From an uncultured Collinsella sp. (lineage in GTDB: Bacteria; Actinomycetota; Coriobacteriia; Coriobacteriales; Coriobacteriaceae), in the NCBI GenBank assembly GCA_900759435.1, contig CAAEVD010000227.1:1-10720 (forward strand): a stretch of 10,720 nt of DNA. The letters run 5' to 3'. The notes under the pieces are model-generated. The model was not told the origin of the DNA. It did not search any database and was given only the letters and a program-made list of their open reading frames with translations. A program made the position numbers and the translations under genes. This document shows, piece after piece, positions 117-10,265 of the stretch (position 1 is its first letter; each line of letters begins with the position of its first letter).

Positions 117-193
117 GCCGTGGGCAATCCGCTCTAATGTTTCCAAATGAATACGGTGTGAGCCGAGAAGGACGATTCTCCCCGCAAACACTC

Positions 194-207
194 TAGTATG
201 CTAAAGT
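194..207 (+). promoter_or_regulatory. Candidate -10 region of the his operon promoter
   Basis: The AT-rich stretch around TAGTATGCTAAAGT stands out in GC-rich surroundings about 75-85 bases before the hisZG start. TATGCT at 197-202 matches four of six positions of the sigma-70 -10 consensus. No convincing -35 hexamer lies 16-18 bases upstream. If this is the promoter, the hairpin at 214-239 would sit at the very 5' end of the his mRNA. This is inference only. Confidence 0.2.
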
Positions 208-213
208 ACCCAG

Positions 214-248: not shown

Positions 249-281
249 ATGAAACACAGCATGAGGAGGCTCACCAGATGA
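249..281 (+). CDS. Ten-codon upstream reading frame overlapping the hisZG start
   Basis: ATG at 249 opens the frame MKHSMRRLTR and ends at TGA 279-281, so its stop overlaps the hisZG start codon as ATGA. The frame contains the hisZG Shine-Dalgarno sequence. It has one His codon, far fewer than a classical his attenuator peptide. No clear ribosome binding site precedes the first ATG. The overlap would allow translational coupling if it is translated, but it may be chance. Confidence 0.15.
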   Translation: MKHSMRRLTR

Positions 282-1993
282 CGGCCACACCGTGGGGATT
301 CCGGGACATATTGCCCGAGGAGGCTCAGGCGCGCGAGGAGATTGCGCTGACGGTGAAGGGCTGCTTCAGGGGGCATCGTTACCTTCCGGTCGAGACGCCG
401 CTGCTCGAGGACAAGAGTTCGCTTGAGGAAGGCGGACGCATTGCGGACACGCCGTTTAAGCTCTTTGATGATGACGGTCGCCTGCTGGTGGTCCGTCCCG
501 ACAATACGTTGCCCATCGTGCGCCTGGTTTCGACCCGCATGCGCGCGGCCGATCTGCCCCTGCGCCTTCGCTACGAGGCGCCGGTGGTTCGCGAGTGCCA
601 GCGCAATGCCGGTGGCTCGCGCCAGTTTACACAGCTGGGCTTTGAGCTTATCGGTGCGGGCGATACCGCGGGCGATGTCGAGATCGTCTCGCTCGTGGCC
701 GAGGCCGTGCGCAAGCTGGCGCTGCCCGATGCGCGCATTATCGCAGGTAGCGTGCGTCCGTTTAAGGAGCTGCTCGCGGCGTGCGAGGATCGCGAGCTGG
801 CCGCCGAGGCCCTGCGCTGCGTGCACGCCAACGACTTTGTGGGCCTTGATGCCCGTGTGGCGGCAAGTGCGGAGTCCGAGGCCGTCAAGGCCGCCATTAG
901 CGAGCTGCCGCGCCTGCACGGTGGTGCCGAGGTGCTCGACCGCGTGGACGCGCTGCTGGAGGCTGCCGGTATCGCCGCGCCGCTCACGCGCGAGTTGCGT
1001 GCTCTGGTCGAGGGTCTGGCTCCCGAGGACGCCCAGGTGCTGTCGTTCGACTTCTCCATCATGAATTCTTTCGATTACTACACGGGCTTGGTATTTAAGG
1101 CCTATGCCGGTGGCCTGCCCGATCCGGTCGGTTCGGGCGGACGCTACGACTCCATCTTTACCGGCGCGTTCGGCGACGGCATCGAGGTGCCGGCGGCGGG
1201 CTTCGCCTTTTCGCTCGAGCGTCTGGAGGCCGCGCGCACCTCGGCCGAGGACGCCGCTTCCGACGGCGATCACGCCGTGGGCCGTGGCGCCGAGGGTCCG
1301 CTGCGCATTGCCGTGCCCAAGGGCTCGCTTAAGGCCGACACGCTTGACGTGCTCGAGGCAGCGGGCTTAGACGTCTCTGAGCTGCGCGATCCCGGTCGTC
1401 ACCTCATCGTGCGCGGCCGCGACACACACGCCGGTGAGGGTGTGGTCGGCGATATCGAGTTTGTCATCGTGCGTCCCAGCGACGCGCCCGCTTTTGTGGG
1501 CTGCGGCGGCGCCGACTGCGGCATCTGCGGCTGGGACTCGCTTATCGAGGCCGACCTCAACCTGCTGCAGCTGGTCGATCTGGGCTACGGCCTGTGCACC
1601 TTTATCGAGGCGGAGCCCGCATGGCGCGCCGGCCAGGCCGAGCGCAACTATGCCCGCCGTGGGTCGCTTCGCGTGGCCACCAAGTATCCGCGCATCGCGA
1701 GCGCCTGGTATGCCGAGCGCGGCGTGAACGCCGACATCGTTTCGCTGCACGGTAACATCGAGTTGGGCCCCATTGTCGGTATGACCGACCGTATCGTGGA
1801 CATCACCGCCACGGGCGCCACGCTGCGCGATAACGACCTGGTTATTACCGGTCGCATTATGGACTGCACGGCCCGCTTCTTTGTCAATCCGGGTGCTGCG
1901 CGCCTGGATCCGCGCGTACGCAATCTGGCAGATCGCTTGGCCGCGGCCGTTAAGGACAAGCATTTTGAGCCCGTCGCGGGCTCGGCACAATAG
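278..1993 (+). CDS. hisZG: Fused ATP phosphoribosyltransferase: HisZ regulatory plus HisG catalytic
   Basis: This enzyme condenses ATP with PRPP to N1-phosphoribosyl-ATP, the first step of histidine synthesis. The 571-residue protein joins two subunits that are normally separate. Residues 1 to about 322 are HisZ, a histidyl-tRNA synthetase catalytic-domain paralogue. Its class II motif 2 region is LRLRYEAPVVREC (95-107), followed by RQFTQLGFELIG, then DYYTGLVF (266-273), GSGGRYD (285-291) and motif 3-like AGFAFSLERL (to 316). After a low-complexity linker (about 323-340), short-form HisG runs from L342 (LRIAVPKGSL) to the end, with VATKYP and the PRPP loop VDITATGATLRDN. The HisG part is about 230 residues, the short-form length that needs HisZ for activity. 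AGGAGG at 264-269 lies 8 bases before the ATG, which supports this start. It is the first gene of the his operon. The stretch C409-C417, with three cysteines, departs from the usual GAADLGIVGKD-type motif. Family assignment is very secure, and the fusion is directly visible as one open frame. Confidence 0.95.
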   Translation: MTATPWGFRDILPEEAQAREEIALTVKGCFRGHRYLPVETPLLEDKSSLEEGGRIADTPFKLFDDDGRLLVVRPDNTLPIVRLVSTRMRAADLPLRLRYEAPVVRECQRNAGGSRQFTQLGFELIGAGDTAGDVEIVSLVAEAVRKLALPDARIIAGSVRPFKELLAACEDRELAAEALRCVHANDFVGLDARVAASAESEAVKAAISELPRLHGGAEVLDRVDALLEAAGIAAPLTRELRALVEGLAPEDAQVLSFDFSIMNSFDYYTGLVFKAYAGGLPDPVGSGGRYDSIFTGAFGDGIEVPAAGFAFSLERLEAARTSAEDAASDGDHAVGRGAEGPLRIAVPKGSLKADTLDVLEAAGLDVSELRDPGRHLIVRGRDTHAGEGVVGDIEFVIVRPSDAPAFVGCGGADCGICGWDSLIEADLNLLQLVDLGYGLCTFIEAEPAWRAGQAERNYARRGSLRVATKYPRIASAWYAERGVNADIVSLHGNIELGPIVGMTDRIVDITATGATLRDNDLVITGRIMDCTARFFVNPGAARLDPRVRNLADRLAAAVKDKHFEPVAGSAQ

Positions 1994-2098: not shown

Positions 2099-3535
2099 AT
2101 GAAGACCATCAAGCTTGCTCCCGGTGAGCGCCTCGTTACCAACCAGCTCAACCGCAAGGGCGTGCTGCCGCAAAACATCGTCGACGCCGCCCGCGATATC
2201 GTGGCCAACGTGCGTGCCAACGGCGATGCCGCGGTGCGCGATTACTGTCAGCGTTTTGACGGTGTCGAGCTGCAGAGCTTCCGTCTGCCGCAGGAGCAGA
2301 TCGATGCCGCGCTCGAAGGCCTCGATCCCGCTTTTGTCGCGGCGCTCGAGAAGGCTGCACGCCAGATTCGTGAGTTCCACCAGCGCGAGGTCGAGCAGAG
2401 CTGGTTTACCACGCGCCCGGACGGCACGATACTCGGCGTTAAGGTGACCCCGCTCGCGGCGGCTGGCATCTATGTGCCGGGCGGTCGCGCGCAGTATCCC
2501 TCCACGGTGCTCATGAACGCCATTCCCGCCAAGGTCGCCGGCGTCAAGCGCGTGGTCATGGTGACCCCGCCGCAAAAAGACGGCCTGATCAGCCCCTACA
2601 CGCTCGCCGCGGCAAAGCTCGGCGGCGTGGACGAGATCTATATGGTGGGCGGCGCTCAGGCCGTGGCCGCGCTGGCTTACGGCACCGAGACCATTCCGCG
2701 CGTCGACAAAATCACCGGTCCGGGCAACGCTTTTGTTGCCGCTGCCAAGCAGATCGTCTCCGGCGACGTGGGCATCGACATGGTCGCCGGCCCGTCCGAG
2801 GTCTGCGTGCTGGCCGATGCTACGGCCAAGCCCATGGTGGTCGCGGCCGACCTGATGGCTCAGGCCGAGCACGATCCGCTGGCAGCCTGCTATCTGGTGA
2901 CCTGCGACGAGCAGTTTGCGCGCGAGGTCGAGGCGGGTATCGACATCCTGGTGGCGCAGTCGCCGCGTGCCGAGATCACGCGTGCCTCGCTCGATAACGA
3001 GGGCACCATCGTAGTGGCCGCCGACATGGCTGCCGCTGTCGAGGTCGTGAACACCGTGGCGCCCGAGCACCTTGAGTTGCACTGCAAGGACGCGATGGGT
3101 CTGCTCGGCGGTATTCGCAACGCCGGCGCCATCTTTGTGGGCGCTTGGAGCTCCGAGCCGCTCGGCGATTACGTCGCCGGCCCCAACCACACGCTGCCGA
3201 CCGGTGGCACGGCCATGTTCTCCAACCCGCTTTCGGTCGAAGAGTTCGTCAAGCGCTCGAGCGTTATCTGCTATACGCCCGAGGGCCTGCTCTCCGACGC
3301 TCCCGCTACGCAGCGCCTGGCCGAGGCCGAGGGCCTGTGGGCACACGCGCTTTCCGCCGCGCTGCGTCGCCGCGTGCTGGAGCAGGGCGAGGATGCCGTG
3401 AGCGCCGAGTCGCTCGCCGCGGCCGACCTGACCAAGGTCGCCTGGCCGGGCGACGCCGTGGCGACGGTCGCCGAGGGTGTGGACCTGGCGGCTGCAGGCT
3501 CGGATGGCGCTGGCGCGACCGGCGAGGAGGCCTAA
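2099..3535 (+). CDS. hisD: Histidinol dehydrogenase HisD
   Basis: HisD oxidises L-histidinol through histidinal to L-histidine with two NAD, the last two steps of the pathway, as a cytosolic zinc homodimer. The family signatures are all present: YVPGGRAQYPSTVLMNA, TGPGNAFVAAAKQIV, and AGPSEV leading to the QAEHDP motif. The zinc ligands are Q255, H258, D357 (LGDYVAGPNHTLPTGG) and H416 (GLWAHALS). The catalytic pair E323-H324 lies in APEHLEL. These match the E. coli pattern Q259, H262, D360, H419 and E326-H327 almost position for position. AGGGG at 2086-2090 lies 8 bases before the ATG. At 478 residues it is about 40-50 longer than typical, through an Ala/Gly/Asp-rich C-terminal tail whose last codons also provide the hisC ribosome binding site. 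It is in the operon 105 bases after hisZG and 1 base before hisC. Confidence 0.97.
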   Translation: MKTIKLAPGERLVTNQLNRKGVLPQNIVDAARDIVANVRANGDAAVRDYCQRFDGVELQSFRLPQEQIDAALEGLDPAFVAALEKAARQIREFHQREVEQSWFTTRPDGTILGVKVTPLAAAGIYVPGGRAQYPSTVLMNAIPAKVAGVKRVVMVTPPQKDGLISPYTLAAAKLGGVDEIYMVGGAQAVAALAYGTETIPRVDKITGPGNAFVAAAKQIVSGDVGIDMVAGPSEVCVLADATAKPMVVAADLMAQAEHDPLAACYLVTCDEQFAREVEAGIDILVAQSPRAEITRASLDNEGTIVVAADMAAAVEVVNTVAPEHLELHCKDAMGLLGGIRNAGAIFVGAWSSEPLGDYVAGPNHTLPTGGTAMFSNPLSVEEFVKRSSVICYTPEGLLSDAPATQRLAEAEGLWAHALSAALRRRVLEQGEDAVSAESLAAADLTKVAWPGDAVATVAEGVDLAAAGSDGAGATGEEA

Positions 3536-3536
3536 T

Positions 3537-4652
3537 ATGGCCGAGCTGACGCCCCGCATGAAGGAGCTCGTCCAGCCCTACCTGGCCGGTATCGAGCCCT
3601 ACGATCCCAACTTCACGCCCACACGCATCAACCTTTCGGCCAACGAGAACACCTATCCCGTGCCGGCTGGCGTGCGCAAGGCGGTCGACGCGGCCCTGGC
3701 TGCCACGCCGCTCAACCGCTACCCCGATCCCATGTCCAACGACCTGCGCGACGAGCTTGCCGCTTGGCATGGCGTGGCTCGCGAGAATATCTGCGTGGGC
3801 AACGGCGGCGACAAGCTGCTCTATAACTACCTGCTGGCGTTTGGCGGCGCGGGACGGACCCTGCTCAACTGCCCGCCGTGCTTCAGCGAGTATGCGTTCT
3901 TTGCATCGCTCTGTCAGACCGAGGTGCGCGACGTGTGGCGCGACCCGGCGACCTTTGAGCTCGACCAGGCGGCGGTGCTTGCGGCGGCTCCCGAGTGCGA
4001 TCTGGCGATCGTGACCTCGCCCAATAACCCCACGGGCGACGTGGCGCCGCTCGACTTTGTCGCGGCCCTGTGCGATGCCTGCCCCGGCATGGTGATGGTT
4101 GACGAGGCCTACGTGGAGTTTGCCGACGATTCGTTTGGCGCGGCTACCACGGCGCAGGGCCTTATCGCCGAGCATTCCAACCTGGTGATTCTGCATACGC
4201 TGTCCAAGGCGTTCGGCGCCGCCGGCACGCGCCTGGGCTATGTGATCGCGGCACCCGAGGTCATCGACGTGTTCGCGGCGATTCGTCAGATTTACTCGGT
4301 CAACGTGTTGAGCCAAGCGGCGGCGCTTGCCTGCGTGCGTGCCCGCGATGCGTACGCGCCCGTGGTGGCACAGGTCGCATCCGAGCGCGAGCGCGAGTTG
4401 TGCGCCCTGCGCGCAATGGCTGCCGAGGGCATGCCCGTGGAGACATGGCCGAGCGCGGCGAACTTTGTGCTCGTGCGCACGCCGCATGCCACGCGCGTGC
4501 GCGAGCGTCTGCGCGACGAGTATTCGATTTTGGTGCGCGACTTTAGTTACGCGCCGGGGCTCGCGGACTGTCTGCGCATTACCGTGGGTACCCCGCAGGA
4601 AAACGACGAGGTGCTGGCTGCGCTTGCCGCGCTGGTGAAGGAGGAGATGTAG
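3537..4652 (+). CDS. hisC: Histidinol-phosphate aminotransferase HisC
   Basis: This PLP-dependent fold type I aminotransferase converts imidazole-acetol phosphate and glutamate to histidinol phosphate and 2-oxoglutarate. The 371-residue protein shows INLSANENTYP (31-41), SPNNPTG (161-167), the PLP O3'-binding VDEAYVEF (D189, Y192) and the Schiff-base lysine K224 in LSKAFGAAGTRLGY, with phosphate-binding R232. The C-terminal DCLRITVGTPQEND motif is also present. I chose the ATG at 3537. GAGGAGG at 3524-3530 lies 6 bases upstream, and the N-terminus then begins just before the conserved region. An in-frame ATG at 3477 would lie deep inside hisD without a ribosome binding site. The gene starts 1 base after the hisD stop and abuts hisB, so translational coupling is likely. 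Confidence 0.96.
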   Translation: MAELTPRMKELVQPYLAGIEPYDPNFTPTRINLSANENTYPVPAGVRKAVDAALAATPLNRYPDPMSNDLRDELAAWHGVARENICVGNGGDKLLYNYLLAFGGAGRTLLNCPPCFSEYAFFASLCQTEVRDVWRDPATFELDQAAVLAAAPECDLAIVTSPNNPTGDVAPLDFVAALCDACPGMVMVDEAYVEFADDSFGAATTAQGLIAEHSNLVILHTLSKAFGAAGTRLGYVIAAPEVIDVFAAIRQIYSVNVLSQAAALACVRARDAYAPVVAQVASERERELCALRAMAAEGMPVETWPSAANFVLVRTPHATRVRERLRDEYSILVRDFSYAPGLADCLRITVGTPQENDEVLAALAALVKEEM

Positions 4653-5240
4653 ATGGACCGCTATGCCGAGGTAACCCGCAAGACGGGCGAGACCGACATT
4701 GTCGTAAAGCTCGACCTGGACGGATCTGGCGTGTGCGATATCTCGACCGGCGTGCCGTTTTTCGACCACATGCTCAACGCTTTTGGCCGCCATGGTCTGT
4801 TCGATCTGACGGTGCACGCGGTGGGCGACGTCGAGGTCGACGCACATCACACCGTCGAGGACACGGGTATTGTGCTGGGCGAGGCGTTTTGCCAGGCGCT
4901 GGGCGACAAGGCGGGCATTACGCGCTTTGCCGACGCGGCGATCGCCATGGACGAGACGCTTGTGATGGCTGCTGTTGATATTTCGGGCCGCGGGCAGGCC
5001 TACTGCGAGCTGCCCGTGCCGACTGAGCGCGTGGGCAGCTTCGATACCGAGCTGGCCGTCGAGTTCTTCTACGCCTTTGCGCGCGCCGCCAAACTTACGC
5101 TGCACGTGCGCGAGCTGGCGGGCGGCAACTCGCATCACATTATCGAGGCCGCCTTTAAGGCCGTGGGCCGCACGATGCGCCACGCCTGCGAGCTCGATCT
5201 CCGCGTGCAGGGCATCCCCAGCACCAAGGGTTCGCTGTAA
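4653..5240 (+). CDS. hisB: Imidazoleglycerol-phosphate dehydratase HisB (monofunctional)
   Basis: HisB dehydrates imidazole glycerol phosphate to imidazole-acetol phosphate. At 195 residues it has the normal monofunctional length and only the dehydratase domain. The N-terminal HAD phosphatase found in enterobacterial HisB is absent, so a separate phosphatase is needed. Diagnostic motifs are FFDHMLNAFGRHG, DAHHTVEDTGI (63-73, metal-binding H65/H66 and E69), MDET, SGRG, GGNSHHIIEAAFKA (157-170, metal-binding H161/H162) and the terminal STKGSL. The ATG directly follows the hisC stop with no gap. AAGGAGG at 4638-4644 lies 8 bases upstream inside the end of hisC. Confidence 0.97.
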   Translation: MDRYAEVTRKTGETDIVVKLDLDGSGVCDISTGVPFFDHMLNAFGRHGLFDLTVHAVGDVEVDAHHTVEDTGIVLGEAFCQALGDKAGITRFADAAIAMDETLVMAAVDISGRGQAYCELPVPTERVGSFDTELAVEFFYAFARAAKLTLHVRELAGGNSHHIIEAAFKAVGRTMRHACELDLRVQGIPSTKGSL

Positions 5241-5296
5241 CCGCCACAAAGGCAAAAACCACCACGAAGGTGCCTGTCCCCTTTGTGGTGGTTTTG
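5241..5296 (+). terminator. Strong hairpin with an alternative pairing arm between hisB and hisH
   Basis: Bases 5255-5270 (four A, then CCACCACGAAGG) pair with 5280-5295 (CCTTTGTGGTGG, then four T). This forms a 16-bp stem with one G-U pair and a 9-base loop. The flanking A and T runs give it the shape of a bidirectional intrinsic terminator. A second near-copy of the left arm, CCGCCACAAAGG at 5241-5252, can pair with the same right arm over all 12 positions, with one G-U. The two hairpins exclude each other. The loop side carries GGTGCCTGTCCCC (5269-5281), which looks like a dispersed-repeat motif. It lies inside the operon, 24 bases before the hisH start. It may reduce transcription into hisH, process the mRNA, or simply be an inserted repeat. 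Confidence 0.6.
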
Positions 5297-5319
5297 GATG
5301 ATGGAAAAAGGAGGGTCGC

Positions 5320-6021
5320 GTGGGCGAACCGAAGATCGTGGTGGTCGACTACCACAAGGGCAACTTGTCGAGCGTCGTGCGCGGGCTTGCGCGCGCCGGT
5401 GCCGCCGCCTGCACGTCGGACGATCCGGAGCAGATCCGCCGCGCCGACGGCTTGGTCATTCCGGGCGTGGGTGCGTTCTATGACGCGATTGCCTTTATGC
5501 GCCAAAGCGGCGAGGCGGACGCGGTACTCGATGCCATCGCCACCGGGACTCCGCTGCTCGGCATCTGCCTGGGCCTTCAGCTATTTTTTGAGCGCGGCAA
5601 CGAGGGCGTGCCTGCGGACGAGGGCGCGGTCGCCGACGGCAACGCCTCCGAGCAGGCTGGCGGTCCTTGGGTCGATGGCCTGGGTATTATGCGCGGTTCG
5701 TGCACGCGCCTGGAGTCGAGCCGCCTGAAGGTGCCGCACGTGGGCTGGGACCAGGTGCACATGACGCCCGCCGGTGCGGCCGATCCGCTGCTCGCCGGTT
5801 TTGCCGAGGGCGCCAACATGTACTTCACCCACAGCTATGCGGTGGCAGACGACGCCGATGCCGCCGATGTGCTGGCGCGCACGCACTACGCGCGGAGCTT
5901 CCCGTGCATCGTGCGCCATGGCAACGTGTGGGGCTGCCAGTTCCATCCCGAGAAATCCTCCGCGCTGGGTCAGCGCATCCTTAAGAACTTCGTCAACATC
6001 GTCGAGGAGGCCGGCCGATGA
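5320..6021 (+). CDS. hisH: Imidazole glycerol phosphate synthase glutaminase subunit HisH
   Basis: HisH is a class I (triad) glutamine amidotransferase. It supplies ammonia to HisF for conversion of PRFAR to imidazole glycerol phosphate and AICAR. The N-terminus KIVVVDYHKGNLSSV is typical, as are GVGAF and the nucleophile elbow LLGICLGLQLFF with C83. H209 and E211 in CQFHPEKS complete the triad. LKVPHVGWDQV and MYFTHSYA are further HisH signatures. At 233 residues it is somewhat long, through an insertion of about 20 residues after the nucleophile helix (residues ~95-115, acidic and Gly/Ala-rich). The start is GTG at 5320, with AAGGAGG at 5308-5314 five bases upstream; no better ATG fits. It follows hisB by 79 bases holding the strong hairpin and overlaps hisA by 4 bases (ATGA). 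Confidence 0.96.
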   Translation: MGEPKIVVVDYHKGNLSSVVRGLARAGAAACTSDDPEQIRRADGLVIPGVGAFYDAIAFMRQSGEADAVLDAIATGTPLLGICLGLQLFFERGNEGVPADEGAVADGNASEQAGGPWVDGLGIMRGSCTRLESSRLKVPHVGWDQVHMTPAGAADPLLAGFAEGANMYFTHSYAVADDADAADVLARTHYARSFPCIVRHGNVWGCQFHPEKSSALGQRILKNFVNIVEEAGR

Positions 6022-6761
6022 TTCTGTTTCCCGCAATCGATTTGATTGGCGGCAAGGTCGTGCGCCTGGAGCGCGGCGACCGGAGCCGCTGCAAGGTATA
6101 TTCCGACGACCCCGTGGCCGTCGCCCGCTCGTTTGCCGAGCAGGGCGCAAGCTGGGTGCACGTCGTCGATCTGTCCGCTGCCTTTGGCGAGGACGAGGAC
6201 GCATGCGCTGCCAACTCGGCGGCGATCAAGGCCATCTGCGGCGTCGACGGTCTGTCTGTGGACGTGGGCGGCGGCGTTCGCTCGCTCGCGCGCATCGACG
6301 AGTTGGCCGGCTACGGTGCGCGCCGCATTGCGCTGGGCACCGTGCTGGTGACCGAGCCGGGTTTTGCCGAGGTGGCGGCCAAAGGTTTTGGCGAGCTACT
6401 GGTGGCTGACATTGCCGCACGCGACGGTCAGGTCAAGGTGAACGGCTGGCGTGACGGCGCGGGCGTGGCGCTCGACGACGCCGTGGCGCAGCTTTCCGAG
6501 CTGGGTTTTAAGCATCTGGTGTATACCGACATTGCGCGCGATGGCATGCAGACGGGCATCGATGTGGCGGCGTATCGTCATGTGGCCGAGGTCGCGGGCT
6601 TTCCCGTCGTGGCTTCGGGCGGCATCTCGACGCTCGACGACATCCGCGCGCTGGCCGCGGTGGGTGAGGGCGCGATTGAAGGTGCCATTACCGGTCGCGC
6701 GCTCTACGAGGGCAACTTTACGCTGACCCAGGCGCTGGCCGCCGCCCGAGGGGAGGAGTAG
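6018..6761 (+). CDS. hisA: ProFAR isomerase HisA
   Basis: HisA is a (beta-alpha)8 barrel isomerase that converts ProFAR to PRFAR by an Amadori rearrangement. The 247-residue protein has D8 in LFPAIDLIGGKVVRL at the end of strand 1 and D171 in VYTDIARDGMQTG, both conserved catalytic-site positions. The two phosphate-binding glycine motifs, VGGGVRSL and VASGGIST, are present, and it ends with the usual GRALYEG segment. The start overlaps the hisH stop as ATGA, with GAGGAGG at 6004-6010 seven bases upstream. In some Actinobacteria the homologue PriA also performs the TrpF reaction. The sequence alone does not decide this here, so HisA is the conservative name. Confidence 0.95.
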   Translation: MILFPAIDLIGGKVVRLERGDRSRCKVYSDDPVAVARSFAEQGASWVHVVDLSAAFGEDEDACAANSAAIKAICGVDGLSVDVGGGVRSLARIDELAGYGARRIALGTVLVTEPGFAEVAAKGFGELLVADIAARDGQVKVNGWRDGAGVALDDAVAQLSELGFKHLVYTDIARDGMQTGIDVAAYRHVAEVAGFPVVASGGISTLDDIRALAAVGEGAIEGAITGRALYEGNFTLTQALAAARGEE

Positions 6762-6764
6762 TCC

Positions 6765-7547
6765 ATGCTTACCAAACGCTTAATTCCCTGCCTGGACGTC
6801 AAGGACGGCCGTGTGGTCAAGGGTGTCAACTTTGTGAGCCTGCGCGATGCAGGCGACCCGGTGGAGCTGGCGCGTGCCTACGACCGCGAGGGTGCGGACG
6901 AGGTCGTCTTCTTGGACATTACCGCCACGAGCGACAACCGTGCGACGACCATTGAGATGGCGGCGCATGCTGCCGAGGAGCTGGCCATTCCCTATACCGT
7001 GGGCGGCGGCTTTCGCGACCTGGCGGGCATGCTCACCATGGTTGCGGCCGGTGCCGACAAGGTATCGCTCAACTCGGCGGCCGTGCGCGACCCGTCGCTG
7101 ATCAGCCAAGCTGCCGCGGCGTTTGGCAGCCAGGCCGTGGTCGTGGCGATCGATGCCAAGCGCGTCGGTTTGCCCGGAGAGCCGGGTGCCGATAGGTGGG
7201 AGGTCTTTACCGCGGGAGGCCGCAACGCCACGGGTATCGACGCGGTGGCGTGGGCCGAGGAAGCGGCTCGTCGCGGCGCCGGCGAGATTTTGCTCACCAG
7301 TATGGACCGCGACGGCACCAAGGCCGGCTTTGACCTGGCGCTCACCCGCGCCGTGGCGCGCGCGGTGCCGATTCCGGTGATCGCAAGCGGCGGCGTGGGT
7401 ACGCTCGAGCATTTTGCCGAGGGCGTGATCGAGGGCGAGGCCGATGCCGTGCTGGCGGCGAGCGTCTTTCACTTTGGGACGTTCAGCATTCGCCAGGTGA
7501 AGGAGTATATGGCGTCGCAGGGCATTCCTGTCAGGTTGGACTTCTAG
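6765..7547 (+). CDS. hisF: Imidazole glycerol phosphate synthase cyclase subunit HisF
   Basis: HisF is the (beta-alpha)8 barrel partner of HisH. It takes ammonia through the barrel and cyclises PRFAR to imidazole glycerol phosphate, releasing AICAR for purine synthesis. The 260-residue protein opens with [20 protein letters not shown], in which D11 is catalytic. D130 in VVAIDAKR is the second catalytic aspartate, at the position known from Thermotoga His[51 protein letters not shown] and AASVFHFG are further signatures. The start is 3 bases after the hisA stop, preceded by GGGAGGAG at 6751-6758. It is the last tightly coupled gene; a 148-bp gap with a dyad element separates it from hisI. Confidence 0.97.
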
Positions 7548-7560
7548 CGCTGCGGCTTGC

Positions 7561-7647
7561 CCAGGCACCCGACCTTCTGGCTCCAACCCTCCTCGCGTAC
7601 TTAAGTACGCGTCGTCGGGCTTGTCGCTCGGAATCTCGGGCACCTGG
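7561..7647. repeat. Nested dyad element with an 18-bp perfect palindrome (hisF-hisI gap)
   Basis: CGCGTACTTAAGTACGCG at 7594-7611 is a perfect 18-bp palindrome. Around it, CCCGAC (7568-7573) is inverted as GTCGGG (7614-7619). Further out, CCAGGCACCCGA (7561-7572) faces TCGGGCACCTGG (7636-7647), complementary at 10 of 12 positions. The arms are nearly concentric, centred near 7603. The element fills most of the gap between hisF and hisI. It has no T-run on either side, so it is not a classical terminator. A REP-like dispersed repeat, a protein-binding site or an mRNA processing hairpin all fit. Confidence 0.55.
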
Positions 7648-7695
7648 ACAACCCTCGCCGACCTGTGGGATTTCGTTTGTTGCTTGGGAGAAATG

Positions 7696-8025
7696 ATGAC
7701 TGAGGTAATAGAAGCGTCTGATCTTACGTACGACGCCCGTGGGTTGATTCCTTGTGTGGTTCAGCAGTATGACACCGGCGAGGTGCTTATGGTTGCCTGG
7801 ATGAACGAGGAGTCGGTGGGGCTGACGCTCAAGACCGGCACCACGTGGTTTTGGAGCCGCAGCCGCCAGGAGCTCTGGAACAAGGGCGCGACGAGCGGCA
7901 ACATGCAGGCGGTCAAGGAGCTTTGGGCCGACTGCGATAGCGATACGCTGCTGGTCAAGGTCGACTCGCCAGGCCCGGCCTGCCATACCGGCAACCGTAC
8001 CTGCTTCTTTAAGAAACTCGCGTAG
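7696..8025 (+). CDS. hisI: Phosphoribosyl-AMP cyclohydrolase HisI
   Basis: HisI hydrolytically opens the purine ring of phosphoribosyl-AMP to give ProFAR. It is a separate enzyme here, not fused to HisE as in enterobacteria. Its 109 residues include [21 protein letters not shown], the [16 protein letters not shown] substrate loop, DCDSD (79-83) and [10 protein letters not shown]. The zinc cysteines C80, C96 and C103 have the +16, +7 spacing of the archaeal enzyme, with D79, D81 and D83 as likely Mg ligands. Two consecutive ATGs occur at 7693 and 7696. GGAG at 7687-7690 sits 5 bases before the second, which I prefer; the first would give only 2 bases. A further in-frame ATG at 7621 would fall in the dyad repeat and add 25 residues unlike the family. 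Confidence 0.95.
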
Positions 8026-8070
8026 GGCGGGCGCTCGATTAGACGCTCGGCCACCAGAAAGGATTGAACC

Positions 8071-8388
8071 ATGGGTGTGCGCACCGCAAACGTTCAGGAT
8101 GGAAATATCGGTGAGACGCTGACGGGGCTCGCCGAGGTGATTCACGGTCGTCGTGATGCATCGCCGCAGGAGAGCTATACCGCGCGTCTGCTGACCGACG
8201 TCGAGGATGAGCTGCTCAAGAAGCTTGCCGAGGAGGCAAGCGAGGTGATCATGGCCTGCAAGGATAACGATCACGATCACATCCGCTACGAGGCCGGCGA
8301 CCTGGTCTACCACCTGCTCGTGACGCTCGAGCGCTACGGTATCACCCTCGACGAACTGGCCGGTGAACTCAACGCCCGCCGCCACTAG
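8071..8388 (+). CDS. hisE: Phosphoribosyl-ATP pyrophosphatase HisE
   Basis: HisE removes pyrophosphate from phosphoribosyl-ATP to give phosphoribosyl-AMP, the HisI substrate. The 105-residue alpha-helical protein belongs to the MazG-like all-alpha NTP pyrophosphatases. It shows ESYTARLL, LLKKLAEEASEVIMACKD (the metal-binding EExxE-type helix) and YEAGDLVYHLLVTLERYGI (second metal-binding helix with E and D). AAAGGA at 8058-8063 lies 7 bases before the ATG. It is 45 bases after hisI and is the last plus-strand his gene. Its stop codon lies inside the first copy of a direct repeat (8384-8405), so the end of the gene may have been shaped by a repeat insertion. Confidence 0.95.
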   Translation: MGVRTANVQDGNIGETLTGLAEVIHGRRDASPQESYTARLLTDVEDELLKKLAEEASEVIMACKDNDHDHIRYEAGDLVYHLLVTLERYGITLDELAGELNARRH

Positions 8389-8535: not shown

Positions 8536-9447
8536 CTAGTCGAGGGGTGTGGATTCCCATTCTCCGGTGAGGTGGGGGATGTCGAAGGTTCGATAACCGC
8601 AGTCGTAGGCGTGGGCCTGAGCCTCGCGGATATTCCAGCAGATGTCGCAGGCGCGGTGTGCGTCCGAGCCAAAGGTGATGGGTACCTCGGCGTGGGCGAA
8701 GCAACGCAACAGCCCCGTCGAGGGGTAATAGTCGTCGAGGCCCTTGCGCGGCGCGGCGGTCGAAACCTCAACGCGGCGGCCTGTATCGTGTGCGCACTCT
8801 GCCATCTGCTCCCAAAACGGTGCCGGATCAAAATCGGGCGCAAAGCCCTCCTTCGAAAAGCGCATGAACAGGTCGGGGTGAGCCATCACATCAAAGTTAA
8901 GCGGGCTTTCGCAAGCGTGGCACCAGTCGTCGACGTAGCGCTCCCACACGCCGCGTACCCCCAGGTTTTCCCAAACGTGCAGGTTGGTGTCGTCGTCGAT
9001 CCAACCGCAAAGGGAATCGGGTGTATCGGGGCGAGCGACGTTTTCCGTTCCCGCCGCACCCGCGGCACCGGCCATGATATCGCCTGGGTTGCCAATCCAA
9101 TGCACACTGCCCAGGCGCACTATGGCACTCGCGGACCAGCGCTCAACCAGAGGCTCGCAACCTTCGTACCAGTCGCATTCAAAGCCATAGATAAGCTCGA
9201 GCTCCGGCGCAATCTGCGCGGCGAGTTTGCGGGCGTCCTCAAAGGCCAGACGATGTGCCGGCAGGTCGCCCTCGACAACCTGCACTTCGCAGTTGGCGTC
9301 CATGCTGGCGGGCAGGGTGAGATGGTCGGTCGAGACCATGACGCGGCAACCGGCCGCAGCAGCGGCGCGAACGTTGTCCTCAAACGAGGCATGTCCGTCC
9401 GAAAACGAGGTGTGGGTATGGCAATCGACCAGCGGGCACATGGGCAT
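8536..9447 (-). CDS. hisK: PHP-family phosphatase, probable histidinol-phosphatase
   Basis: It probably removes phosphate from L-histidinol phosphate, the step between HisC and HisD. The 303-residue protein has the full set of PHP metal ligands: H10, H12, D17 and H19 in DCHTHTSFSDGH, D41 and H42 in STDH, E90 in GFECDW, H116 in GSVHW, H190 in MAHPDLF, and D262 and H264 in GSDAH. This favours an active trinuclear-site hydrolase. Assignment to histidinol phosphate rests on context, since HisB here lacks a phosphatase domain and the gene adjoins the his operon. It could instead be another PHP phosphoesterase. It is slightly longer than B. subtilis HisJ (about 268 residues), partly through a Gly/Ala-rich segment at ~123-145. 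AAGGAG on the minus strand (9453-9458) lies 5 bases before the ATG. It is transcribed separately, convergent with hisE. Confidence 0.8.
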   Translation of the reverse strand: MPMCPLVDCHTHTSFSDGHASFEDNVRAAAAAGCRVMVSTDHLTLPASMDANCEVQVVEGDLPAHRLAFEDARKLAAQIAPELELIYGFECDWYEGCEPLVERWSASAIVRLGSVHWIGNPGDIMAGAAGAAGTENVARPDTPDSLCGWIDDDTNLHVWENLGVRGVWERYVDDWCHACESPLNFDVMAHPDLFMRFSKEGFAPDFDPAPFWEQMAECAHDTGRRVEVSTAAPRKGLDDYYPSTGLLRCFAHAEVPITFGSDAHRACDICWNIREAQAHAYDCGYRTFDIPHLTGEWESTPLD

Positions 9448-9578: not shown

Positions 9579-9643
9579 AAACATGTACATCAGCCTCCAA
9601 AAGCTGCAGAAAATGACATGTTTGGAGGCTGATGTACATGTTT
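9579..9643. repeat. Perfect 23-bp inverted repeat in a divergent intergenic region
   Basis: Bases 9579-9601 (AAACATGTACATC ... CCTCCAAA) are the exact reverse complement of 9621-9643, with a 19-base spacer. The motif ACATGTTTGGA also occurs twice in direct orientation (9616-9626 and 9636-9646), so the right arm is preceded by a partial copy of its own end. Both flanking genes point away from it, so it is not a terminator of either. It could be a REP- or MITE-like element, a regulatory RNA hairpin, or a large binding site. Confidence 0.7.
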
Positions 9644-9779
9644 GGATGAGGCGGTGGAGTGTCGGTTTCTTGCGGGCGAGGAAAATCGCGCTCATCGCGC
9701 GCCGTCACATCCGCGCAGCCCGCGATGTGCTAGCGTTTGGGTGAACAAAACGAGCCCGTGCGGAAAGGAGCCGGACCGT

Positions 9780-10265
9780 ATGCCATGCGATAGCACATCT
9801 CCGCTGTCTTGCGAGACCGATGCGCCCGAGACCATCGTCAAGCTGGAATGCGACATCGACGACGCGTCGCCCGAGGTGCTCGCCTACGCTGCCGACCGCC
9901 TGCGCGAGGCGGGTGCGCGCGAGGTGCATTGGCTGCCCCTCTATTGCAAGAAAGGCCGCCCCAGCTGGCAGCTACAGGTAATCTGTGCTCACGAGGATAT
10001 CGAGCGTCTGCAGACGATCATCTTTTTGGAAACCACGACCAATGGTATCCGTCGCCAGGTTATGGAGCGCGTTTGCCTGCCACGCCGCTTTGAGCGCGTA
10101 ACGACGCCATGGGGCGAGGTGTCCGTCAAGGTGGCCACCCTGCCCGACGGCAGTGAGCGTGCGGCACCCGAGTACGAGGACTGCGCCCGCCTTGCCCGTG
10201 AGCACAACGTGCCGCTCCAGCGCGTGATGCAGGCGGCGCAAGCCGTGGCACTGCGATTTGAGTAA
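9780..10265 (+). CDS. Free-standing LarC C-terminal domain (LarC2-like) protein
   Basis: The 161-residue protein matches the C-terminal part of LarC, the CTP-dependent nickel insertase that completes the nickel-pincer nucleotide cofactor of lactate racemase and related enzymes. The recognisable family segments are VKLECDIDDASPEVLAYA, LYCKKGRPSWQLQVIC, FLETTTNGIRRQVMER and PEYEDCARLAREHNVPL. Full LarC proteins are about 400 residues. The N-terminal LarC1 part is absent, and nothing like it precedes this gene, whose upstream region is non-coding and carries an inverted repeat. The start at 9780 has AAAGGAG 9 bases upstream. An in-frame ATG at 9642 lies in the repeat and would add an unlikely N-terminus. 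LarC1 may be encoded elsewhere, or the domain may work alone in another metal or nucleotide role; this is not settled here. yfcE follows after 60 bases and may be co-transcribed. Confidence 0.8.
   Translation: MPCDSTSPLSCETDAPETIVKLECDIDDASPEVLAYAADRLREAGAREVHWLPLYCKKGRPSWQLQVICAHEDIERLQTIIFLETTTNGIRRQVMERVCLPRRFERVTTPWGEVSVKVATLPDGSERAAPEYEDCARLAREHNVPLQRVMQAAQAVALRFE

Follow-up and report, generated by a model that had tools for sequence, protein, structure and literature searches.

The stretch of DNA analysed here, referred to as the window, is 10,720 nt long, comes from an uncultured Collinsella sp., and carries a histidine biosynthesis operon in the order hisZG-D-C-B-H-A-F-I-E, with a fused hisZG gene at the operon head. 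The features that concern us are as follows.

189..208, + strand: palindrome resembling a HisR operator (differs from cacTTTAnnnnnnTAAAgtg at 2 of 14 positions; 1 match, against 0 in 200 shuffles)
263..269, + strand: Shine-Dalgarno-like GAGGAGG, read off the sequence
278..1993, + strand: hisZG fusion gene (571 aa, ATG start, stop-free inside; 49 of 51 named loci share the frame)
278..1237, + strand: HisZ half, residues 1-320, lacking the C-terminal region present in longer HisZ
1238..1300, + strand: variable linker, residues 321-341 (pLDDT <50 at 326-331; length varies among fused frames)
1301..1990, + strand: short-form HisG half, residues 342-571 (TIGR00070 above cut-off; PF01634)
2099..8388, + strand: rest of the his operon
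2099-3535, + strand: hisD
to 4652, + strand: hisC
4653-5240, + strand: hisB
5320-6021, + strand: hisH
6018-6761, + strand: hisA
6765-7547, + strand: hisF
to 8025, + strand: hisI
8071-8388, + strand: hisE

Two further frames lie downstream. On the minus strand and facing the his operon, 8536-9447 encodes a PHP-domain protein that resembles HisJ-type histidinol-phosphatases, below the NCBIfam cut-offs, and that may be the phosphatase for which the operon showed no gene. In the frame at 9642-10265 (+), residues 65-182 match the LarC2 nickel-pincer-cofactor domain NF052512.

The 571-aa protein consists of HisZ and short-form HisG, both near full length against their profiles. In the Pfam profile search PF13393 covers residues 7-316 of the HisZ half (profile 1-308 of 308, 219.9 bits), and TIGR00443 aligns with residues 9-320 at 248 bits, under its cut-off of 271.65. 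The histidyl-tRNA synthetase model hisS (TIGR00442) reaches 149.3 bits, well under the score of TIGR00443, and covers residues 4-324 only (profile 2-316 of 406), after which HisG follows. PF01634 matches residues 399-555 of the HisG half (profile 1-157 of 158), TIGR00070 matches residues 342-535 (160.5 bits against a cut-off of 75.75), and PF01634 is the sole HisG family in the Pfam output, with no HisG C-terminal regulatory domain found in the protein at E 0.001. Structure comparison with VIA-align gave fold matches to HisZ chains for the HisZ half; no HisG chain stood among the matches listed, which the HisZ half fills, and the identity of HisG rests on sequence. The protein thus has neither the C-terminal regulatory domain of long-form HisG nor the best match to hisS and C-terminal anticodon-binding domain of a histidyl-tRNA synthetase. 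What it shares with the short-form enzyme is a short HisG lacking the regulatory domain and a HisZ that is a paralogue of histidyl-tRNA synthetase (with the TIGR00443 cut-off unreached), but the short-form enzyme is described in the excerpted text of PMC10795190 as two distinct polypeptide chains, and 278-1993 is one frame. The claim of the first-pass annotation that HisZ and HisG are joined in a single frame is therefore borne out by a 571-aa frame without a stop and by matches to both sets of profiles, and the short-form HisZG system that it chose for comparison is the right one.

Could such a frame be the product of an assembly or sequencing error that merged two adjacent genes? Relatives with separate genes often have hisZ next to hisG, their open frames overlapping, and an indel could merge these frames. 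Other assemblies, however, show the same fused frame at 49 of their 51 named loci, the remaining two being contig-end pieces from one genome; the fusion is also present in 108 of 197 genomes of the class, and the fused protein is missing a HisZ tail of ~100 aa, which a single-base error is incapable of removing; we regard such an error as practically negligible. Hence the frameshift or stop between the domains, named by the first-pass annotation as what resequencing might reveal, is contradicted by an intact frame in independent assemblies. The 571-aa fusion shares 97-98% identity with the proteins encoded at the named C. aerofaciens loci. Compared with four close relatives, third codon positions show 43-58 differences over HisZ and 47-52 over HisG, and first and second positions 2-8 differences each, a codon pattern indicating that purifying selection acts on both halves. 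In an alignment of the window's protein with 108 others (those of at least 540 aa among 120 matches listed), conservation is strong over the HisZ and HisG halves but not over the linker. The fusion is real and old, and neither chance nor sequencing error.

The fusion was then counted across its class, Coriobacteriia, to which G001 belongs (the C. aerofaciens genome that contains locus L001). Among 197 genomes, 108 have the fusion, 60 are split (HisG in a frame without HisZ), 3 are unjudgeable (G137 and G151 are absent from the listing and G133 is at a contig end), 7 have a weak HisG match only, and 19 have none. The fused genomes comprise 102 with a single alignment across both halves, 4 with pieces in one frame, and 2 (G018 and G030; loci L117 and L126) in which a fused HisZG has a shortened HisZ with a domain span of about 240 residues. 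A stop falls within the alignment in 8 of the 102; it was taken as the stop at the end of the frame, since these genomes retain open frames of 554 aa or more. The split state was checked on DNA in 36 of the 60 genomes and judged by frame length or coordinates in the others. In a larger sample HisG was found in 348 of 396 genomes, and the frames among the best rows listed are at least 538 aa, except in G291, where the contig ends within the gene. We rejected G291 as a re-split short HisG, given that its frame still bears part of HisZ, and likewise G379 and G252 as re-split members, both being fused. No second HisZ or HisG was seen in the genomes of four relatives (G001-G004); these gave just weak matches in frames of 446-490 aa, which were taken for HisRS.

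The fused and split forms differ in what follows the HisZ domain. In the split HisZ of the class, the tail after the domain has a median length of 104 aa (range 52-109), and 11-44 nt separate the hisZ stop from the start of the HisG domain (36 distinct rows in both cases); in nine rows from the wider phylum, tails measure 89-108 aa, with -10 to 26 nt from hisZ stop to HisG domain. The 66 distinct fused frames have 7-96 aa between the domains, with a median of 21. These counts exclude L050, L051 and L100, which have one half only, and the HMMs were built from fused proteins. The tails of unfused HisZ are a real shared region: the tail of L093 matches 44 of 60 tails at E 0.001, itself and duplicates counted, and none of the seven fused linkers of at least 30 aa gave a tail match. 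The two longest linkers, of 96 aa in L115 (G180) and 52 aa in L116 (G179), are low in complexity and rich in Ala, Ser, Thr and Glu, and have no tail match either. Three split HisZ have tails of just 52-64 aa, so that the tail has been shortened in some unfused lines too. Because of these two long linkers and three short tails, tail length draws no clean divide between fused and split proteins. The hisS model aligns through the tail in 4 of 4 unfused HisZ, with profile ends at 378-397 of 406, and the Pfam anticodon-binding domain was not found in the same four at E up to 1. An extra C-terminal domain is known from HisZ of A. baumannii and P. arcticus, and is absent from those of L. lactis and T. 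maritima (PMC10795190, in the text available). HisG thus occupies the position where other HisZ have a C-terminal region. The description of the HisZ half as complete, given in the first-pass annotation, holds in the Lactococcus sense, but the half lacks the C-terminal region that longer HisZ possess, unfused ones of the class among them. The linker, at residues 321-341 or so, is variable both in sequence and in length, and its structure is predicted poorly.

A quick tree of HisZ and HisG combined was based on 87 chosen rows (78 of them different; two loci were dropped as incomplete) and rooted on nine wider-phylum rows whose class is unstated. In this tree, 34 fused class rows lie on one side of a single branch with support 94, and the split rows of the class lie outside the fused group together with the nine wider-phylum rows. 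In a tree of HisG only, 17 class-fused rows need two changes, which the starred branches do not force. A single fusion in the ancestor of the fused Coriobacteriia, arising from neighbouring hisZ and hisG, would most likely account for this pattern. One event that deleted the HisZ C-terminal region of roughly 100 aa would have placed HisG there in frame; since the deletion would span the hisZ-hisG junction, loss of the tail and fusion may have occurred together, as one event.

Fusions of this type are not limited to Coriobacteriia. A search with HisG against proteins of about 468 aa or more had 4380 candidates, of which 2992 matched at E 1e-10 or below, and the best 120 of the 2992 all have HisZ and HisG Pfam domains. 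The named ones belong to Gemmiger, Subdoligranulum and Oscillibacter, which we take to be Clostridia. Among these best 120, the clostridial fusions resemble those of Collinsella in having HisZ ahead of HisG within a single frame (471-553 aa, with a linker of 7-32 aa), but differ from those of the class in a median linker of 14, in a KGR motif, and in their distant position on the tree. At several of 11 clostridial junctions a Met stands just before the start of HisG, as if an old start codon had persisted. One may ask whether a single ancestral fusion, common to Coriobacteriia and Clostridia, was spread by gene transfer. The domain order is identical and the HisZ C-terminal region is absent in both groups, and a single grouping of the fused rows is not rejected: holding all fused rows together gives p-AU 0.46 without anchors and, with three unfused anchors, a tree 27.7 log units lower with p-AU 0.075. 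However, with these anchors the free tree needs two origins, and free trees join the fused rows of the class with its split rows (support 100 and 99). The motif also conflicts with a common fusion, KGR being present in HisG of all 120 of these best clostridial matches, versus A, S, V, K, T or E after KG in those short-form HisG of Actinomycetota, fused or split, whose motif was readable. We consider one shared fusion rather doubtful, and separate origins of the class and clostridial fusions are favoured, not proven. Tentatively, and with less than even confidence, we propose a broader reading in which HisG was swapped for the HisZ C-terminal domain at least twice, in Coriobacteriia and in Clostridia, giving a four-chain homomeric enzyme with intrachain feedback; the leftover end piece of the tRNA synthetase and the tethered HisG would then be alternatives at one place, and the same tentative confidence covers both parts of this reading jointly.

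Residues in both halves bear on function. With numbering inferred from spacing, R374 (aligned with P. arcticus HisG Arg56) is kept in at least 90% of 122 aligned fused proteins and C440 (aligned with Cys115) in all 122, and S350 (1325-1327) stands at the position of Arg32, the arginine of KGR. In P. arcticus HisG, Arg32 is part of the leaving-group chemistry (PMC9734150, excerpt). Actinomycetota short-form HisG with a readable motif, fused or split, have A, S, V, K, T or E in place of this arginine. We rejected the idea that tethering to HisZ allowed the loss of Arg32, given that unfused HisG, both in the class and in the wider-phylum sample, also have a residue other than Arg after KG. In fused HisZ, R105, R115, Q119 and E123 are invariant, and Y267, Y268 and SGGRY at 286-290 nearly so; presumably these are motifs of the HisRS type. 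The AlphaFold model of the full single chain has pLDDT 89.5 and pTM 0.89, and suggests that the two halves would have a defined packing in the chain.

Upstream of hisZG, the best HisR-like box within 260 nt has at most 3 mismatches in 45 of 49 named loci, and its shuffle fraction is at most 0.01 in 44 of the 49. The operator consensus was taken from PMC9413887, where, in the portion available, HisR is reported to control his operons in 20 Actinobacteria genomes. The window gave no Rfam match at gathering score for a riboswitch or T-box over its 10,720 nt. A terminator-like hairpin (213-240, 11 pairs, then T-rich) lies downstream of the HisR-like box and ahead of hisZG; similar stems are present in some close relatives (L001, L019, L020, L022) and not in many others. 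The HisR-like operator, with its similar box in most named loci, would also fit a fused HisZ whose regulation has been lost or changed, leaving a constitutive activator or tether, with feedback moved to transcription control by HisR, and the window's HisZ indeed scores under the TIGR00443 cut-off, as opposed to the unfused HisZ of the class (3 of 3 scanned above it). Control by HisR and feedback through HisZ are compatible, however, the fused HisZ of G013 is above the same cut-off at 279.5 bits, and the presumed HisRS-type motifs are kept in fused HisZ; lost regulation therefore appears improbable.

Instead, we consider it highly probable that hisZG encodes a single-chain short-form ATP phosphoribosyltransferase in which HisZ activates and provides feedback, with a four-chain core, and that it arose in the class through one fusion event with loss of the C-terminal region. 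Points that weigh against this reading are the TIGR00443 score under its curated cut-off, Ser350 at the place of P. arcticus Arg32, the two changes needed in the tree of HisG only, and the long linkers and short tails described above. By analogy with two-chain enzymes, the function of the fused protein is likely that of an ordinary histidine-inhibited ATP phosphoribosyltransferase on a single chain. The HisG half would make phosphoribosyl-ATP; it would be activated by the HisZ half, which is related to histidyl-tRNA synthetase and would bear the histidine feedback site. Four fused chains would assemble into the core seen in the two-chain complex, which has four copies each of HisZ and HisG and places a HisZ tetramer between two HisG dimers (PMC9734150, excerpt). 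Because that complex already pairs a HisZ tetramer with two HisG dimers, the 1:1 stoichiometry said in the first-pass annotation to be enforced by fusion is not created by it, and the altered feedback inhibition that the annotation also put forward is a conjecture. The annotation mentions neither the lost C-terminal region of HisZ nor the clostridial fusions.

HisZ-HisG fusions as such are already known, and the one described here is not a new kind of system. Phoenicibacter and Slackia proteins are called 'Multifunctional fusion' proteins among the UniRef matches listed, and a clause in the available text of PMC9413887 counts hisZ-hisG among fused his genes, with no species named there; hisZ does not occur in the main text of PMC1963479, one of the two references cited in that clause. 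Whether such fusions are already well described in this clade thus has a divided answer, as they are named in databases and in that one clause, but the sources, in the parts available, gave no description for this clade. Nor did the literature searched, which leaves most subscription journals outside its coverage, contain biochemistry of the fused enzyme or replacement of the HisZ C-terminal region. HisZ with HisG serves as a model of allostery between subunits, and natural fusions offer a one-gene version with the pairing fixed, useful for testing subunit exchange and the role of the HisZ C-terminal domain. Fused and unfused forms exist side by side in this class, and the event can hence be studied against close unfused relatives.

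Compared with characterized systems, Collinsella HisZG is a single chain where HisZG of Lactococcus lactis (1z7m, 1z7n) is two. The ATP phosphoribosyltransferases of Psychrobacter arcticus and Acinetobacter baumannii (5m8h, 8oy0) likewise combine HisZ with short-form HisG, but they have separate chains and a HisZ with an extra C-terminal domain (PMC10795190, in part), neither of which is found in Collinsella, and P. arcticus HisG has Arg32 where Collinsella HisG has Ser. Long-form HisG (HisGL), like Collinsella HisZG, combines catalysis and regulation in a single chain (PMC10795190, same excerpt); its regulation, however, resides in a C-terminal domain, whereas that of Collinsella HisZG would reside in an N-terminal HisRS paralogue, with no such C-terminal domain at E 0.001. 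Finally, hisIE, hisNB, HIS4 and HIS7 are fused pathway genes (PMC1963479, abstract), as is hisZG, but while these join catalytic functions to one another, hisZG joins a catalyst to its regulator.
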